DNA from: a virus
Direction: 5' to 3' (one strand)
DNA length: 61,749 bases
Virus record (IMG/VR): IMGVR_UViG_3300049846_002543
Location: 1-61,749 of that record
Below are positions 35,332 through 60,055 of the stretch, in pieces (position 1 is the stretch's first letter; every line of letters starts with the position of its first letter). Both the position numbers and the translations under genes were made by a program. Under the pieces are notes generated by a model that was not told where the DNA came from, did not search any database, and worked only from the letters and a program-made list of their open reading frames with translations.

Positions 35332-36447
35332 TTAAGCGTTAAAGGAGTAAGCGATGGTGGCGAAGTCAGCGTTCAGGAGTTCGAAACCTGCGTACAGGCT
35401 CCAAATCATCATGATGAAACGGCTGAAGTCGTCGTTGTTATTCAGGAGCACCTGAGCATTGTTGCCGCCGATACCGACGCCCACGCTCTGGGGACCGAAG
35501 AACATACCGATTGCACTCTCATAGGAAGCGCCGGTACCGCCGATGGTCGCGGTCTGGCTCTGAGAGGGCATGTTGGTCGATTCGAAGAAGCGAACGCCTT
35601 CGAAAACGAAACCGGTGGGCATGATGGGCTCACCAGCCACGAAGCTGGCTTGACCGAAGCCCTGACCCATGTAGATAGCAGCGTTGGGCTGCATACCCGA
35701 CATAAGGGGGTTGATCTGACCGTTGCCAGGATAACGAGCCACTTCACGGAAGTCGCTGTTCTGACGCAGGTGCATCAGGAAGGTAGGATCGCATACACAG
35801 CGATAGAAACCGTCCTGATAGGTAGGAACGTTACGCTTACGCAGGCTCTTCACCACGCGCAGCAGGTCGTCCTTAACGTCGAACTTAGCTTGTTCGGCGT
35901 TGCTATAGGTCAGGGAACCAACAGCCAGATCGCCAGGGTAGTAGTAACCACCTTGGGTATCGGAAGCTTGGCCCTTAGAAACTGCTTTCAGGAGTTCGTT
36001 GATGAACACCCGGTCACGCCAACGACGATAGTCGTCGAGCAGAGTCAGCGAACCGATCGACTGGTGGAACGCGGTCAGGTTACCGGTGTCCAGCAGCAGG
36101 CGCTGAGCAGTGATCAGGGTTTCCCGAGCAATCTTAAAGGTGCTCGGTTGGGTGGGATCGGACGGATCAGCAGGACCGGTGTACTCCTTAAGAGTCACCA
36201 GCACCTTGTCCTTCACGATGTTGCGGCTGTTAGCAGTACCGATGGTCTGCTCTGCAGTACGCTCACGTGACTCTTTGCTTCCCGGATTACCCCAGAACCT
36301 GTAGCGGTCTAACTGCACAGTCTGGCCAGGCTGCTTGCTGAAGTCGTGAACGACCACAGGCTCTGCAGCCATCTCAACAACGTACGCAGGGTGCGGACGG
36401 TAGAGTTCGGCGCCGAGAAGCTTCGGGAAATCATTATCGACAAACAC
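35332..36447 (-). CDS. Probable major capsid protein
   Basis: 371 residues starting with GTG, preceded by TGGAG. Codon use is strongly biased, as in 34438-35316. The sequence order KVLVTLKEYTGP, FKIARETLITAQRLL, FHQSIGSLTLLDDYRRWRD and VPTYQDGFYRCVCDP resembles the N4-gp56-like/HK97-fold capsid group. The C-terminus (FELLNADFATIAYSFNA) is typical of HK97-fold capsid ends. Its place after portal and scaffold genes in the same direction supports the call. A search is needed to fix the family. Confidence 0.75.
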   Translation of the reverse strand: MFVDNDFPKLLGAELYRPHPAYVVEMAAEPVVVHDFSKQPGQTVQLDRYRFWGNPGSKESRERTAEQTIGTANSRNIVKDKVLVTLKEYTGPADPSDPTQPSTFKIARETLITAQRLLLDTGNLTAFHQSIGSLTLLDDYRRWRDRVFINELLKAVSKGQASDTQGGYYYPGDLAVGSLTYSNAEQAKFDVKDDLLRVVKSLRKRNVPTYQDGFYRCVCDPTFLMHLRQNSDFREVARYPGNGQINPLMSGMQPNAAIYMGQGFGQASFVAGEPIMPTGFVFEGVRFFESTNMPSQSQTATIGGTGASYESAIGMFFGPQSVGVGIGGNNAQVLLNNNDDFSRFIMMIWSLYAGFELLNADFATIAYSFNA

Positions 36448-36527: not shown

Positions 36528-37241
36528 CTAGCCCAACTTTCGGTAGATATTGCGTACGCTCTCTGGTAGCTGGTAGTAGATAGAACCGTAGTTAGAAACG
36601 TATTTGGCCGCGCCGCCGCGATACATAAACCGGAATGGCACAGACATCAGTCCGGGCTCTTCTGTACGAATCGTCTGTGTGTACGTCTTGCAGTAAACCG
36701 GAGGGTTGTAAACCCATTCAGAACGATTCGCCGTTCCCTGAGGACCGAGCGAGTTGGTGAGAATGCCTCCCTCGTACCGACCGTGGGTTACTCCACCACC
36801 CGTAATTCCTTGCTGTCCAGTATTTCCTGTCGGTGTGTTGTAAGGATCGTAGGTCTGAGAGTCTGGTGCAGATCCCCCGAAGTACGTATATTTACCGGCA
36901 TCGCGGACTCCGTAGTCAGGACCGGTAAAAGTCTGAATTTTCCGTCCAGCAATCGTGCTGACAGTAACTGGTCGATATCCTTGATACGAACTTAAGACAC
37001 CACTAGGTGCGTAATCTACATTCTCGTAATCAGTCCAGTACCCTGATACCGCCGTAGGTACTTGACGCCACGACGTTGAATAGGTGCCGCTGTAACTAGG
37101 AGACCCATCGACAATTACGCCGACGTCAGCTCCGGTATCTCGAATACCCGAGCTAACAACGACATAACCTTCATACGAAGGGCCGGTTTGGACGCGATGC
37201 GGCCCCGAATCGTAATTGTAATTTCTATACGATATATACAT
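36528..37241 (-). CDS. Tyr/Gly-rich virion protein
   Basis: 237 residues, about one residue in seven being Tyr, with Gly/Ser/Thr/Pro; beta-rich with no membrane segment. The repeated YDSG, GPSYEG and SYSGTYS pieces look like structural turns. It lies upstream of the capsid protein in the same direction. A connector, tail tube or fibre-like role is possible; no family recognised. Confidence 0.55.
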   Translation of the reverse strand: MYISYRNYNYDSGPHRVQTGPSYEGYVVVSSGIRDTGADVGVIVDGSPSYSGTYSTSWRQVPTAVSGYWTDYENVDYAPSGVLSSYQGYRPVTVSTIAGRKIQTFTGPDYGVRDAGKYTYFGGSAPDSQTYDPYNTPTGNTGQQGITGGGVTHGRYEGGILTNSLGPQGTANRSEWVYNPPVYCKTYTQTIRTEEPGLMSVPFRFMYRGGAAKYVSNYGSIYYQLPESVRNIYRKLG

Positions 37242-37666: not shown

Positions 37667-37696
37667 ATAAAAAACCCCCGTTGTCCAGACGGGGGT
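37667..37696 (-). terminator. Rho-independent terminator after the scaffold gene
   Basis: ACCCCCGT (37674-37681) and ACGGGGGT (37689-37696) form an 8-bp GC-rich stem with a 7-nt loop, followed on the minus strand by TTTTTTATT. It separates portal/scaffold from capsid transcription. Confidence 0.88.
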
Positions 37697-37753
37697 CACG
37701 CTATGTTCGTCCACCATGCGAGCGGTGCTCCACACCGCTGAACTTACTTTAAC

Positions 37754-38704
37754 TCAGTTGCCATCAAGGAACAACAGCTTGGCTCGCAGAGCCTCGGGGG
37801 ACATGTTGTTCAGATAACGCCAAGCTTGATCGGGAGCTTGGTTCATAACCTGACCGAACTGTTCCCACTGCATGTTGGGATCTTGCTGAGGTTGACCGCC
37901 GGTGGAAGCGGCAGGCACAGCAGGCACTTGGTCATAGTTGGGCTGATAGCTCTGCTGGATAGCAGTGCGAGCTTCATCAGCAGCAATCTGCTCATCGGTG
38001 CGCAGATCGGTGGGATACACCTCGGTGAAGAACCGGTTGGTGTAATCGGCGAGCTGATCAGGATCAGTCAGAATCTGCTCCATCGCCATGCCACGGGTGG
38101 CAATTTGCTCAAGAGTTTGATGCTGCTGAATCAGGGCATCCTCCAGAGTGGTGGAGTACTGATTCAGAATCGCCGGAGCTTCCAGACCGAAGTGATTAAC
38201 GACGGCGGCGCTTGCTTGGCTTAACTGCGGCTCCTGAGCCGTAGAAGTCGGCGAGGAAGTTGGGGTCGTATAGACGTTGCTGGATAAGATCGGCTGAGCC
38301 GTAGGGGGTTGGTAAGCCCAGGGCTGTTGGACCTGTGAAGCCAGACTGTTCTGTTGAATATCCTGCGCCGCCAGTTGGGGCTGCGCTAACGATGCTGTCT
38401 GGCTGGGGGACGGGGAGAGCCGGGAGACGATCCGGTCCAGGCTGCCCAGCGCTGCTTCCCACGGGTTGCTCGGGGAGGAGGCTGACGGAAACTGGCTGGA
38501 CTGGCTGCTGATAGAAGGGGCCGTAGCCAGTTGTGCCGGCGACGGCGCTTGGGCTGTAGTTGCCGAAGCTACCGCCGGGGTAGGGGTTTGCGCCACCCAC
38601 TGAGGGTAAGCGGTTGAGCCCATATCCGGGGAGAAGGCCGCCTGGGGCGCCGCTACTGCCGGGGAGACCGGGCTCGGGGTCGAAGCTGGGATCGCTTGGC
38701 TCAT
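37754..38704 (-). CDS. Capsid assembly scaffold protein
   Basis: 316 residues. The N-terminal 170 residues are Ser/Pro/Ala/Gln-rich and lie in the -1/+1 alternative frame of the portal gene; NPWEAALGSLDRIVSRLS in this part looks like a genuine helix. From residue 165 on, helices (YSTTLEDALIQQHQTLEQIA, AMEQILTDPDQLADYTNRFF) and an acidic end match the form of phage scaffold proteins. It sits between portal and capsid genes, the standard place. Start ATG 38704 lacks a clear ribosome site; internal starts (ATG near 38626) are possible, but the helix at about 80-97 argues that the overlap is translated. Confidence 0.75.
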   Translation of the reverse strand: MSQAIPASTPSPVSPAVAAPQAAFSPDMGSTAYPQWVAQTPTPAVASATTAQAPSPAQLATAPSISSQSSQFPSASSPSNPWEAALGSLDRIVSRLSPSPSQTASLAQPQLAAQDIQQNSLASQVQQPWAYQPPTAQPILSSNVYTTPTSSPTSTAQEPQLSQASAAVVNHFGLEAPAILNQYSTTLEDALIQQHQTLEQIATRGMAMEQILTDPDQLADYTNRFFTEVYPTDLRTDEQIAADEARTAIQQSYQPNYDQVPAVPAASTGGQPQQDPNMQWEQFGQVMNQAPDQAWRYLNNMSPEALRAKLLFLDGN

Positions 38705-40436
38705 AGCTGCCCGAGTAAGTTAGTTCTTGCGCGAGGTGATCGAATGTGCGGTAGAGGAGAGGCGTTATATTTAACCTCGGATCCGCCGCTAAGGGCTGGG
38801 TCGGCGCAAGAGGGTGCGGCGACTGCATCAGCTGATTTAATGTTAGCAGGAAATTTTGTAGCGCGGCTTGCGTTTGTTGAATCATTCTGAAGGGGAATCC
38901 CTTCAACATTTCAGATCGTTCTAGATCACTCTTGTCTGGGAACAAGTAGCGCAGAGCTTCCACGCTGTCAACACCGAGTTCTTGAAGATTTCGAACAACG
39001 ATTGACTTTTGGTTGATGTCGTACGCCGTATCTTCATAGACGTCACCTTGGAAGCGATAGGTCACTTCCCGGTCGCCATCTGGAGGTAATCCAAACACAC
39101 CGCCGGGGACTTTGTTTTCCGACAGAGCCGTTTGGATGGCCACGTCGACGTCCCGCTCGTATTTGGCCAGACGCTTCTGATACTTCTCGGCGGCTTCCGG
39201 GGTATCTTCTTTCGGTTCTTTGGGCGGAGCCATGCCCATGACCGAGATGAAACTCTCGCGGAAAATTTGCTCTTGATGATAAATAATCATCTCCAGCAAA
39301 CGACAGAAGCCGTAGCTCAGAAAGCTCTTATTTTTACGAAGAGCAGTCGCCTGAGCACGACCCATAAGGCCCTTAATCTCAGTCGCAGTGGCACCGGCGC
39401 TAATCGATATTTCATCAACGCCGCCGAGTGCAGTTCGAATTTCCTCTCGTAATAAAAGGGCATAACGATTCATGTCCCCGTTAACGGGGTCAGGGGTCAT
39501 ATAACCGACTCGGTCTGTCGGTTCGACGTTGGCAATAATTCGAGGAACTCGAAGACCCCCGATACCAGACTGCGATCCGAAAGGATCCGAGACCCGCGTG
39601 GACGGAGAATCTAAACCGCCAAATCCGCTCTGACTGCTGATCGTCGGACGGAAGTTACGATCGGTATCACTCGCCTCCACCAGATCACTACGCGGACGCG
39701 AACTGATCAGAGTCGGGTTGCCAAAGAACTCGATGTTCTTGGCGATATTCTGCATCATCTGATCATGCAGAACAATCTGCTGCATGAACGGCTCGAATTC
39801 GCCTTCGCCTTCAGTGCCGCTAGCGTTGGGTTTGTTAAGAACCTCCACGGCGGGGATAAACCCGAGCGTGTTAGGTCGGCTGTTCCGAGGCGTAATAACG
39901 GAACCCGGCTCTAAGTCAAAACTCAGCTCTGTGTCGGCTTCGTACTCTGTGATCGTCTCAGCCGTAATCGAGATACGGACGTACCTCTTGTTCTGACCGT
40001 AAGTATTTGAAGGCAGCCCTAAATTGCCATTCTTAACTTTGTAGGAATAAAGGATTACAACCTCTTCGATTTCTCCATTGAGGTCGTGATAAACCCGATA
40101 CTGATTTTTGTTGAAAAAATAAATCTGATACTTCAGCTTGGGGTCGGGCCTGAAGTAAAAAAGACCCGAACCGTCGATCAAAAAATTCCGAACGATAGCC
40201 GGGAAGCGGATATCAAGTTTATTAAGTTTTATCAGATCATCCAGAAACTTACTACGAGCTTTATACGTATCCTGCTCACAATAGAAAAACAGACCCTTCT
40301 TAATCATAAGAAGGGTCATCTGCTGGACATGGCTCAGCACCACCATGGTGGCGGATTGCTTAGAGCGATCCTGAGTTCGGGCTGCCTCCAGAATCTCACT
40401 GAATCGTCCTCGGACACTTAGAAGATCTGCAGGCAT
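38196..40436 (-). CDS. Portal protein
   Basis: 746 residues. The core (1-560) has the SPP1/T7-type portal style: the wing region with IYFFNKNQYRVYHDLNGEI, the long helical crown (AAEKYQKRLAKYERDVDVAI) and SISAGATATEIKGLMGRAQA of the stem region. The dodecamer would form the DNA channel. The last about 170 residues are Pro/Gly-rich, share DNA with the scaffold gene in another frame, and end in a Lys/Arg cluster (KPSKRRRR). The gene begins the portal-scaffold unit ending at the terminator 37667-37696. Confidence 0.82.
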   Translation of the reverse strand: MPADLLSVRGRFSEILEAARTQDRSKQSATMVVLSHVQQMTLLMIKKGLFFYCEQDTYKARSKFLDDLIKLNKLDIRFPAIVRNFLIDGSGLFYFRPDPKLKYQIYFFNKNQYRVYHDLNGEIEEVVILYSYKVKNGNLGLPSNTYGQNKRYVRISITAETITEYEADTELSFDLEPGSVITPRNSRPNTLGFIPAVEVLNKPNASGTEGEGEFEPFMQQIVLHDQMMQNIAKNIEFFGNPTLISSRPRSDLVEASDTDRNFRPTISSQSGFGGLDSPSTRVSDPFGSQSGIGGLRVPRIIANVEPTDRVGYMTPDPVNGDMNRYALLLREEIRTALGGVDEISISAGATATEIKGLMGRAQATALRKNKSFLSYGFCRLLEMIIYHQEQIFRESFISVMGMAPPKEPKEDTPEAAEKYQKRLAKYERDVDVAIQTALSENKVPGGVFGLPPDGDREVTYRFQGDVYEDTAYDINQKSIVVRNLQELGVDSVEALRYLFPDKSDLERSEMLKGFPFRMIQQTQAALQNFLLTLNQLMQSPHPLAPTQPLAADPRLNITPLLYRTFDHLAQELTYSGSYEPSDPSFDPEPGLPGSSGAPGGLLPGYGLNRLPSVGGANPYPGGSFGNYSPSAVAGTTGYGPFYQQPVQPVSVSLLPEQPVGSSAGQPGPDRLPALPVPQPDSIVSAAPTGGAGYSTEQSGFTGPTALGLPTPYGSADLIQQRLYDPNFLADFYGSGAAVKPSKRRRR

Positions 40437-40454: not shown

Positions 40455-41297
40455 TCAGGAGTCCGGAAGAAGGTACTCCTTCACTCGTTCCAGTTTAAAC
40501 AATTCTGGCGGTAAAAGATCATGCGGATACGCGGTCAGCAAATGATCTTTGCGCCCGAGCGGATCGGTCCCGCCCACTGTGGCTTTGTACTTATCCAGAT
40601 AATCCAGCATTTCCTCGCTGTATGCAGGAGCGTGTGCATTAGGTATGTCGTCATAGCAGTGAGAGAATGACGTCAACTTACGCTTAAGGCGATCCGGACC
40701 TCCCATCCAACTAAAATGCCACCCGGCGTCACAATCTCCTACGACAATATCGTTCGGATTTCTGCGGATCTCAGAGAGGGTCTGATCCAAATGATCATGA
40801 AGGACAACGGTCCCACAAGTCCAGTTAGTCGGAGGCTTTGTTTTGTCTCCGTCTGGACTCACAACACGAAGGTCCGCTCGGCCATACATCATCGGCATCG
40901 ACAGACGAACACATCGCGCAGGATCTGCCTTAGCCAGGTCTACAGCTTCTAAGAGAGCGGATGGTTTGGGTATTTCGTCTACGTCGGAAAAGAAAAAGAC
41001 CGAATCAGGCGGAGTCATCCGCATTCCCACAGCGAGGGCATCTCGCTGAGCGAACTCGCGGATCCAAGGACTAGGAGCGATATCCGGCGGCGGAAGCTCG
41101 ACGTGCAGAACTTGAAGTTTGTCTTCGGGCAACCCAAGTTTTCGGATCGTCTCTAAGCAAGTAAAAGGCTTTTCGTCACCTTTAAACGTACGATTGGCGT
41201 CCGTGATAATGAAACCATCTACAATGTCTTTAAGAATTTCTACACGGAGTTCAAGTAGTTCTGCTTCGTTGAAATAAAGAAAACAATCAAACAGCAT
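40455..41297 (-). CDS. GT17-family glycosyltransferase
   Basis: 280 residues from ATG 41297. The family (beta-1,4-N-acetylglucosaminyltransferase-like) is shown by FLYFNEAELLELRVEIL, the TFKGDEKPF loop, PWIREFAQRDALAVG, the DxD-type VFFFSDVDEIP, and GWHFSWMGG with SFSHCYD near the end. It would transfer a sugar, with nucleotide sugar and a metal ion, to a glycan of the host envelope or the particle. It stands just upstream of the portal gene with 18 nt between. Confidence 0.85.
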   Translation of the reverse strand: MLFDCFLYFNEAELLELRVEILKDIVDGFIITDANRTFKGDEKPFTCLETIRKLGLPEDKLQVLHVELPPPDIAPSPWIREFAQRDALAVGMRMTPPDSVFFFSDVDEIPKPSALLEAVDLAKADPARCVRLSMPMMYGRADLRVVSPDGDKTKPPTNWTCGTVVLHDHLDQTLSEIRRNPNDIVVGDCDAGWHFSWMGGPDRLKRKLTSFSHCYDDIPNAHAPAYSEEMLDYLDKYKATVGGTDPLGRKDHLLTAYPHDLLPPELFKLERVKEYLLPDS

Positions 41298-41349
41298 GGA
41301 AGGCCGGAACGGGCCTGCATAGCTTAGCAAGATTTAGCAAGAAAAGCAC

Positions 41350-43982: not shown

Positions 43983-45506
43983 TCAATACTCGACCGAAAA
44001 ACTACCTCGCCGCTGAAGAAAAGTTATTAACCAAGTGTATGCGTCCAACAAGTCATCATGCGCGGTGGCGCCTACGTTAATCAGCTGGTCGAACAACGCA
44101 TCGAACTTGCGATATTTGTTAAAAATCACTTTTTGATTTTCTAAAAGACCCAAGGTGCCTCGGAAACGAGCGATTTTGTCGCCTCTAAACCCTTTAACTT
44201 CGTGGATATGCAGATTACTTAGTCCCCTTTCGTTCAAAAGAACGCGTCTCAGGTCCGCAGCGAGGCTTGCTTGGTATGCCACGGATTCAACAACGAGCGT
44301 CACCGTGGAATATGTCGGCTGGTACTCCCCGTTGTACTTAGTCAAAATGCCCCACTCAAGCAACATATCACACAGCAGATCTATCTTTTCAAGATTTCCT
44401 ATAGAACGACACTGATGTGCGTCTACGATATAGTACTTATCCTTTAAGCGGCCTCCAAGAACAAACGCCGTGTAGTCAGACGTCTCGTTTTTACTGGCTG
44501 AAAGGTCAATTCCGAGCGCCAGGCTGTCGAATTCGGTCGCCACGTCCCCTTTGATCAGAAGATCCGGGGAAACAACCAGATCGCTCGTAGCTACAGGCTG
44601 CTGTTGGTACTGGAAACAGAATGCGACGGGATCAAGTTCTTTCTGTTGTAATAAATAATCGACAGACCACTGAGTCTGCCAGTAACTTTTAGGCTGACCT
44701 TTGTCGTCATATGTCAGCGCTTCCTGCATAACCTGCTTCCACCCTTTTTCGGGCACAAACATCGTTTTGTGAATATCCAACGGATGGAATCGAGTGCCCA
44801 GACAGATAGATCTACCGCCTTCAAACACAATGGGAGCGATAACGCTACTCCAGTTATTATTCATCTCCTCCCGAATCGTCGGGTTTTTGATGTCAGCCGA
44901 GCTTTTTATAGGGTCATCGATCAGCACTAGGTGAGCACGTTTAGACGTGATGCTACCTCGTAGACCTGCAGCTCTTAGAGTAAATTCTTCATCGCCTAAG
45001 CGAGGGATATTCGCGTAATCATAATCAATAGACCAGCCGATATCGGATTGCATCCCGGGCTTAAGTCGGCACGTCGGGAAGATCTTGCGGAATTCTGAAG
45101 AGTCGACGATTTGCCGAATAATCCTGGATTTCGGAATTGCGGTAGCGATGTTGTAACTAACGTAAATAATCTGCAGCGGTCTCTTGGCGGCTGTATGCCG
45201 ACCGATGCACCACGCGGTGAACATGTTGAGCACCGTAGATTTAGCTGAACCTCGTGGCGCCAAAATATCAAGATTAGGCCCGGCTATGTCCAAAAGATAC
45301 TTATTACTCTCATTAGTTACCAAGTGCTCATGCCATTCGAGCATGTGCGGTGCAGGAGGTTTGTCTAAAAGAGTACAGAAAGTGTGAAAGTCATTAGCTG
45401 CTTTGGTATAAATAGTTTCTATTGCACTATTATCGCCCGCTTCGACTGCCTTTAAAGCCCGTAGTTGAGCTCCACGGCGATACGCAAAAGTCTCTCTACT
45501 CGGCAT
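43983..45506 (-). CDS. terL: Terminase large subunit
   Basis: 507 residues with both activities visible. ATPase: APRGSAKST (Walker A-like, 83-91), LVLIDD (Walker B, 193-198), and the coupling motif near SICLGTRF. RNase H-fold nuclease: ALGIDLSASKNETSDY (first Asp 334), VVESVAYQ (Glu about 410) and HDDLLDAYTW (last Asp about 488). It drives DNA into proheads and cuts concatemers. The small subunit is not certain; 47815-48345 is a candidate. A divergent glycosyltransferase gene starts 54 nt upstream. Confidence 0.93.
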   Translation of the reverse strand: MPSRETFAYRRGAQLRALKAVEAGDNSAIETIYTKAANDFHTFCTLLDKPPAPHMLEWHEHLVTNESNKYLLDIAGPNLDILAPRGSAKSTVLNMFTAWCIGRHTAAKRPLQIIYVSYNIATAIPKSRIIRQIVDSSEFRKIFPTCRLKPGMQSDIGWSIDYDYANIPRLGDEEFTLRAAGLRGSITSKRAHLVLIDDPIKSSADIKNPTIREEMNNNWSSVIAPIVFEGGRSICLGTRFHPLDIHKTMFVPEKGWKQVMQEALTYDDKGQPKSYWQTQWSVDYLLQQKELDPVAFCFQYQQQPVATSDLVVSPDLLIKGDVATEFDSLALGIDLSASKNETSDYTAFVLGGRLKDKYYIVDAHQCRSIGNLEKIDLLCDMLLEWGILTKYNGEYQPTYSTVTLVVESVAYQASLAADLRRVLLNERGLSNLHIHEVKGFRGDKIARFRGTLGLLENQKVIFNKYRKFDALFDQLINVGATAHDDLLDAYTWLITFLQRRGSFSVEY

Positions 45507-59311: not shown

Positions 59312-60055
59312 ATGAACTTAAAAATGTACGCTTTGATTGGAACCCTTGGTGGTGCCGCTGTTGCCTTCGGAGTGCATCACGGTAAAGGCTTCTTTACTGC
59401 GCGACAAGAGGTAAGCGAGTACCACCAACAGCTAATGCTCGCCATGGAGCAGCCGCTTGAAATGGGCAATGACCCCTCGCGGTCGTATCCGGATGGTTAT
59501 CTTCCTGCAGACGCGACCCCGGAACCCGATTACCCAGTAGAAGCGGGGTCGATGCGACCTTCTATTCAATTCAAGGAGCAGATCCCGCCGCTTCCTCCCC
59601 TATCCAACGCCCCGTTCCTAGTCCTCAAAAAGACCTCAAACACAGTAAAACAAACCAAAGATCCTATATGGAACTTAGAACTAATAAGTAAAGACGGAAC
59701 AGTTTTAGACACCCTAAAAGCTGTAACAGGTCGGGCAAATCGACAAGCAGTGAACAGACACGTCGCGGGAACAAAAGCTCCTCTACCTGCAGGCACTTAC
59801 CGCATAGACCGAAGCGGGATCGAACGAGGACCCTTCGCAGATCCGGAACTAGGCACTGGTTTCTGGGTTCCGATAACCCCTCTATTCTCCACGGGGCGAT
59901 CAGAGCTCGGTTTTCATGTCGATCCGTCCTGGGGCAAGCTAAACGGTGAGTCAGGCACTAGCGGCTGCATTGGTCTTGAAAACACAGACGCCACGGTGAA
60001 GCTAGTCACCTGGATCAAACACTTCAATGTCAGCAAGCTTATCGTCCAAAATTAA
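59312..60055 (+). CDS. Membrane-anchored L,D-transpeptidase (YkuD-like)
   Basis: 247 residues. An N-terminal membrane anchor (MYALIGTLGGAAVAFG) is followed by a Pro-rich stalk and a YkuD-type domain from about 100. The catalytic motif reads ELGFHVDPSWG (His202) and SGTSGCIGLEN (Cys219), matching HxxD...SxGCIxL. LPAGTYRIDRSG is the usual preceding strand. Such enzymes form 3-3 cross-links in peptidoglycan or attach proteins. Phage-encoded copies are rare; hardening the wall against other phages, or local modification before lysis, are the inferred roles. Confidence 0.82.
   Translation: MNLKMYALIGTLGGAAVAFGVHHGKGFFTARQEVSEYHQQLMLAMEQPLEMGNDPSRSYPDGYLPADATPEPDYPVEAGSMRPSIQFKEQIPPLPPLSNAPFLVLKKTSNTVKQTKDPIWNLELISKDGTVLDTLKAVTGRANRQAVNRHVAGTKAPLPAGTYRIDRSGIERGPFADPELGTGFWVPITPLFSTGRSELGFHVDPSWGKLNGESGTSGCIGLENTDATVKLVTWIKHFNVSKLIVQN

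Follow-up and report, generated by a model that had tools for sequence, protein, structure and literature searches.

Gene overlaps in tailed phages usually span a handful of bases and are put down to compaction or coupling. Translation of a scaffold from an internal start within a larger head gene is known from phage lambda, where Nu3 originates inside the protease gene C and is read in the same frame, so that the pair is not dual-coding. The locus described here resembles C/Nu3 in that its scaffold-like gene also begins at an internal start within a larger head gene, but differs from it in that the internal gene is read in the +1 frame and the host gene encodes the portal. With gp8 and gp9 of the T7-like cyanopodovirus P-SSP7 it shares the order portal, scaffold, major capsid protein and the fold class of the portal; in P-SSP7, however, the portal and scaffold genes have 1 nt only in common, and the scaffold sequence is not detectably related to the protein studied here (hhalign probability of 0.2% against gp9). 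The sole match among 50,697 phage records was Synechococcus phage S-EIVl (S-EIV1; KJ410740.1), whose portal body and second protein are 47% and 30% identical to their counterparts. The S-EIVl genome contains a 554-nt overlap with a related scaffold-like ORF in the +1 frame, and a Shine-Dalgarno sequence and ATG lie inside its portal gene. In contrast, the deposited record starts the second gene at position 59863, after the portal stop, while the conserved internal ATG is found upstream, inside the portal gene (locus L082, KJ410740.1 59286-60264). The public second protein misses about 190 N-terminal codons, and the overlap was thereby missed.

The DNA analysed in this work, hereafter the window, is the whole 61,749-nt stretch of IMG/VR virus record IMGVR_UViG_3300049846_002543. 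A first-pass annotation made from its letters alone had described a 509-nt overlap between portal and scaffold genes lying on the minus strand in different frames; coordinates and frames proved exact on recheck, the scaffold-like ORF occupying the +1 frame relative to the portal ORF [Table 1]. On the strength of the sequence comparisons reported below, we consider that this overlap most probably represents a true same-strand dual-coding gene pair whose second protein would be made by internal initiation (probability of roughly 0.9). The first gene product was confirmed as a portal, the identity originally proposed for it, by profile (phrog_20475, 3e-158; phrog_64 portal, 6e-10) and by modelled fold, with the terminase and head genes nearby. 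Although a sequence search of the PDB returned no match for this protein, a Foldseek comparison of its AlphaFold2 model, of moderate confidence (mean pLDDT 60), with PDB structures retrieved the portals of T7, phiCD508, SPP1, 80alpha and cyanophages with E-values down to 5e-11. In the model, the last helix of the portal body spans residues 558-576, the overlap starts at residue 578, and the 169-residue tail that follows is predicted to be disordered. A gene for a glycosyltransferase of family 17 (window 40455-41330) sits directly upstream of the portal gene in the head-gene cluster. On the other side of the pair, the terminator-like hairpin directly follows the scaffold-like gene and sets portal and scaffold apart from the small genes and the major head protein gene that lie downstream, and a 237-aa protein rich in Tyr, Gly and Ser with no convincing family match is encoded in the interval between scaffold and major head protein (window 36528-37241).

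Table 1 Features of the portal/scaffold region, in window coordinates
Feature	Position	Strand	Details
Terminase large subunit gene	43983-45506		flanks the portal/scaffold region
Portal gene	38196..40436	minus	746 aa, ATG start, TAA stop; body 1-577, tail 578-746
Scaffold-like gene	37754..38704	minus	316 aa, ATG start, TGA stop; between portal and major head protein genes
Dual-coding overlap (probable)	38196..38704	minus	509 nt including the portal stop; portal residues 578-746 and scaffold residues 1-169
Start-proximal leader	38705..38729	minus	portal third positions abnormally conserved; Shine-Dalgarno sequence here in clades B, C and D
Scaffold-frame TAA upstream of ATG	38720..38722	minus	closes the scaffold frame before its start
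Scaffold start ATG	38702..38704	minus	inside the portal ORF; ATG in 96/96 distinct sequences of the window clade
Scaffold-frame helix NPWEAALGSLDRIVSRLS	38414..38467	minus	residues 80-97; helix 81-95 in the AlphaFold2 model
Portal-frame motif GSADLIQQRLYD	38265..38300	minus	residues 713-724; short helix 715-723 in the AlphaFold2 model
Basic portal C-terminus KPSKRRRR	38199..38222	minus	residues 739-746
C-terminal helical hairpin of scaffold-like protein, predicted	37763..37879	minus	residues 276-314, outside the overlap
Terminator-like hairpin	37673..37697	minus	9-pair stem and T-rich tail; consensus match only
Major head protein gene	35332..36447	minus	phrog_1357 major head protein, 2e-22; downstream of the scaffold-like gene

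Both products of the overlap are of low complexity, as had been noted at first pass: the portal tail is 17% Pro and 16% Gly, and the first 169 residues of the scaffold-like protein are 19% Ser, 18% Ala, 15% Pro and 13% Gln. One might accordingly suppose that a single frame is translated and that the other stays open by chance owing to a composition rich in Pro, Gly, Ser and Gln. Single sequences lend themselves to this explanation, in that the +1 frame of the window was open by chance in 2.3% of synonymous portal recodings and in 11% of codon permutations, the former figure rising to as much as 65% for members of clade C (see below for clades); the portal frame of the window was open in 0.18% of scaffold recodings. 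Taken alone, the openness of the +1 frame in the window is only suggestive of double coding. Single-sequence tests thus being too weak for this frame, a comparison with relatives was needed, and it is this comparison that we regard as decisive.

IMG/VR yielded hundreds of relatives, which group into five clades, A (that of the window), B (that of S-EIVl), C, D and E; portal bodies from different clades share 44-57% identity. Loci were considered evaluable when their portal end was readable (n = 539), and 536 of them keep the overlap, with a span of 452-677 nt. Since some contigs occur more than once, the number of distinct overlap sequences is the better count; it stands at 414 (96, 129, 92, 64 and 33 in clades A to E, respectively). 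Many of the loci were found by portal-body patterns and were therefore not selected for their tail. Every scaffold homologue in the first 158 loci lay in the +1 frame of the same ORF, and no in-frame nested scaffold of the lambda C/Nu3 type was encountered, the frame being +1 in all loci. A search for an outgroup lineage devoid of the overlap returned only two further clades, both of which have it. The first-pass annotation had named two patterns that would count against the overlap. The first, a scaffold gene starting after the portal stop, was seen in none of the intact homologues. The second, stop codons in one of the two frames, was confined to the three exceptions among the 539 loci and to a fourth locus, L378, that had been set aside from them on account of a frameshifted portal body and has frameshifts outside the overlap as well. 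Among the three exceptions, L482 carries its stop 12 nt from the contig end, L627 is also frameshifted outside the overlap, and L418 shows a deletion of roughly 130 nt relative to L470, which is 97-99% identical to it. All four look like damaged or mis-assembled contigs. The L418 deletion fuses the scaffold N-terminus to the C-terminal tail of the portal and reflects either mis-assembly or a natural mutant. Two clade C loci (L277 and L278; QQUU01000043.1 and QQUU01000104.1) place these head genes in a metagenome-assembled genome labelled Bacteroidetes, which probably results from the binning of a phage contig into the wrong genome, unless it points to an unexpected host.

Substitutions were next mapped on portal-body trees and sorted by their effect in each frame, the synonymous rate of the portal-only region being set to 1. 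Within the limits of a parsimony mapping in which the transition weight was fixed at 3 and both-silent changes were few (22-139 per clade), substitutions that altered neither protein accumulated at 0.92, 1.13, 0.79, 1.02 and 0.81 in clades A to E, that is, at the neutral rate (0.8-1.1), whereas those silent in one frame only reached no more than 0.27-0.55. The corresponding values were 0.30, 0.28, 0.27, 0.43 and 0.39 for portal-silent, scaffold-changing substitutions; 0.30, 0.51, 0.39, 0.55 and 0.46 for scaffold-silent, portal-changing ones; and 0.15, 0.23, 0.18, 0.36 and 0.33 for those changing both proteins. With both-silent changes unconstrained and those silent in a single frame suppressed, this pattern fits purifying selection on both frames, each beyond that due to the other, with the scaffold frame slightly the more constrained in clades B-E. 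The synonymous-site comparison which the first-pass annotation had proposed is thus strongly positive in both directions. Codon-position profiles were examined along the same genes. Where the DNA encodes the portal alone, variability is by far the highest at the third codon position (0.54 for clade A and 0.47 for both B and C); inside the overlap the variability of portal third positions is 0.30, 0.17 and 0.20 in A, B and C, respectively, and past the portal stop it is the scaffold's own third position that turns most variable.

Two conserved motifs, one per frame, accompany these rates. The helix that the first reading had picked out in the scaffold frame of the overlap, NPWEAALGSLDRIVSRLS, carries an NPW/NPY-type motif present in 408 of the 414 distinct sequences, and the NPWE helix is kept in the scaffold frame throughout all five clades. 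In the portal frame, a G.ADL-like motif was recovered in 395/414 sequences with a permissive pattern, and at least four Lys or Arg residues occur among the last 12 portal residues in 412/414, which bears out the protein-like Lys/Arg cluster first seen at the portal end of the window. The persistence of both motifs, the retention of both frames in 536 of 539 loci, and the suppression of portal-silent, scaffold-altering changes by about 2- to 4-fold relative to both-silent ones in all five clades, with the reverse holding too, argue against a chance ORF. The two-frame rates refute ORF noise, to which we assign practically no probability, in agreement with the earlier opinion that the overlap did not look like mere noise. 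Conservation at the level of RNA or DNA (RNA structure, packaging or a regulatory site) instead of double coding might be invoked for several third positions near the scaffold start, which over about 25 nt are almost invariant beyond what coding would require; this short stretch is most simply explained as a ribosome-binding site. A nucleotide-level constraint acting over the whole overlap would forbid both-silent changes, but these are free along its entire length (0.8-1.1), which rules against such a constraint and makes this second explanation extremely improbable.

We then turned to the start of the scaffold frame. The start codon is ATG in clades A, B and C and in 32 of the 33 clade E sequences, and GTG in clade D; in every one of the five clades it is found no more than about 12 nt away from a common site, where the last portal helix ends. 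A Shine-Dalgarno sequence precedes it in clades B, C and D (aaaaggagatgagttATG, aaaaagaggtaacttATG and gtaaggagttaagttacaGTG, respectively), in which aaggag or agaggt is spelled in portal Lys-Glu codons. ATG or GTG in every clade and a Shine-Dalgarno in three of them amount to a conserved internal initiation signal. Nearly all sequences of clades A-C also have an in-frame stop 3-15 nt 5′ of the start. In the window clade the third positions of the TCG and AGC codons before the ATG are almost invariant. No recognisable Shine-Dalgarno precedes the scaffold start in that clade. Starting at about position -25, and in the window clade too, several sites lose nearly all portal synonymous diversity (from about 0.5 down to near 0), and it is possible that this clade uses an initiation signal of an unrecognised kind. 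The conserved start, the Shine-Dalgarno sequences of clades B, C and D and the in-frame stops just upstream thus point to independent internal initiation. They also bear on whether portal ribosomes might slip by programmed +1 frameshifting into the second ORF, yielding a portal-scaffold fusion in place of the two separate proteins or alongside them. The second ORF is indeed downstream and in the +1 frame, such that slippage at any point of the overlap would produce the fusion, but its own conserved start codon, with a Shine-Dalgarno in three clades, and the stop immediately 5′ of it indicate separate initiation. An obligatory fusion was downgraded on these grounds, and we hold programmed frameshifting in general to be very unlikely.

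Assignment of the second protein relied on gene order and architecture. In the AlphaFold2 model, residues 1-157 are disordered save for helix 81-95, helices follow at 163-226, the middle of the protein being acidic and helical, and the predicted C-terminal hairpin (pLDDT about 90, mostly 81-96) contains nearly invariant AWR and KL residues. Profile and PDB-sequence searches matched no known scaffold family. A Pfam match to CCDC53 (0.0015) was discarded as it fell below the Pfam cut-off, in a coiled-coil-like stretch. Scaffolds diverge fast, and the absence of homology is therefore weak evidence against a scaffold role. The label given at first pass stands as far as position and architecture are concerned and finds no counterpart in sequence or profile matches to known scaffolds. 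Should the overlap be real and its second product be another head protein, of the inner core or a decoration protein, the lack of any scaffold match would be accounted for, as would the nature of its only good viral Foldseek match, an unnamed 133-residue protein, exactly as long as the S-EIVl product in its truncated annotation. The order terminase, portal, scaffold-like gene, major head protein gene is, on the other hand, that expected for a scaffold gene; a disordered N-terminus, an acidic helical middle and a C-terminal helical hairpin are scaffold-like, and no other candidate was noticed between the portal and head protein genes. Another kind of head protein appears unlikely to us, and the second gene product is likely to be the procapsid scaffold.

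A scheme consistent with these observations may be proposed. A single message, probably ending at the hairpin at 37697-37673, would carry portal and scaffold. In frame 0 it would give the portal, a folded body followed by a disordered Pro/Gly tail of ~170 aa bearing the G.ADL motif and the basic C-terminus. Ribosomes entering anew at the internal start, where the last portal helix ends, would give the +1-frame scaffold-like protein, in which the ~169 residues coming from the overlap would form a disordered N-terminal linker of Ser, Pro, Gln and Ala with a single NPW helix, and whose acidic helical part and C-terminal hairpin would be encoded after it. Since the portal is a dodecamer and the scaffold is required in many copies (PMC12005531), a separate internal start would let one message yield the two proteins in different proportions, and this start may set a higher scaffold-to-portal ratio. 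Scaffolds have C-terminal coat-binding regions (PMC12005531), and the C-terminal hairpin may bind the coat protein. Both shared segments are predicted to be disordered, with one small conserved motif in each; such disorder and low complexity may have made the double use tolerable, and at the portal vertex the two tails could behave as flexible arms.

As to origin, we lean towards an ancestral portal whose end lay near the present scaffold start and which, once its stop was lost, grew into the scaffold gene; this would make the portal tail the younger frame. Two observations favour this course of events: the scaffold start falls where the portal fold ends, and in four of the five clades the scaffold frame is under slightly stronger constraint; codon usage of the two frames does not settle which is older. 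A bolder and rather doubtful proposal is that the portal tail, born by overprinting of the scaffold gene at the root of the lineage, became an arm for recruiting the scaffold that those nucleotides also encode. If true, the overlap would tie together the portal-to-scaffold ratio, timing and co-evolution, and its retention in each of the five old clades would thereby be explained.

The gene pair co-encodes about 170 codons of two head-assembly genes and has kept them while five clades diverged to as little as 44% identity between their portals. It illustrates how a structural gene of a tailed phage can gain a tail, and its more than 400 distinct sequences make up an extensive natural collection on which theories of overlapping genes can be tested. 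It also exposes an annotation gap, as the S-EIVl record, by removing the overlap, leaves out about half of the probable scaffold. The lineage of cyanobacterial viruses that carries the overlap is widespread, and the S-EIV1 group is reported to account for about 3% of the marine cyanophage signal (PMC5332604).

No published account of this portal/scaffold overlap was found in the open-licence literature. Overprinting, by which two unrelated proteins are obtained from one stretch of DNA (PMC8227390; PMC6195259), is known from phiX174 and Rz/Rz1. Known +1 overlaps are mostly short, with a median of 14 nt (PMC8903798), and the largest overlap common to several families measures 185 nt and is there by near-identical sequence (PMC7017920); the claim of the first-pass annotation that overlaps of this size are rare agrees with both surveys. 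In contrast, the overlap of the window's lineage extends over 452-677 nt and joins two head-assembly genes. Overlapping genes as such are known; an overlap this long, conserved between the head genes of tailed phages, is new as far as the open-licence literature shows.
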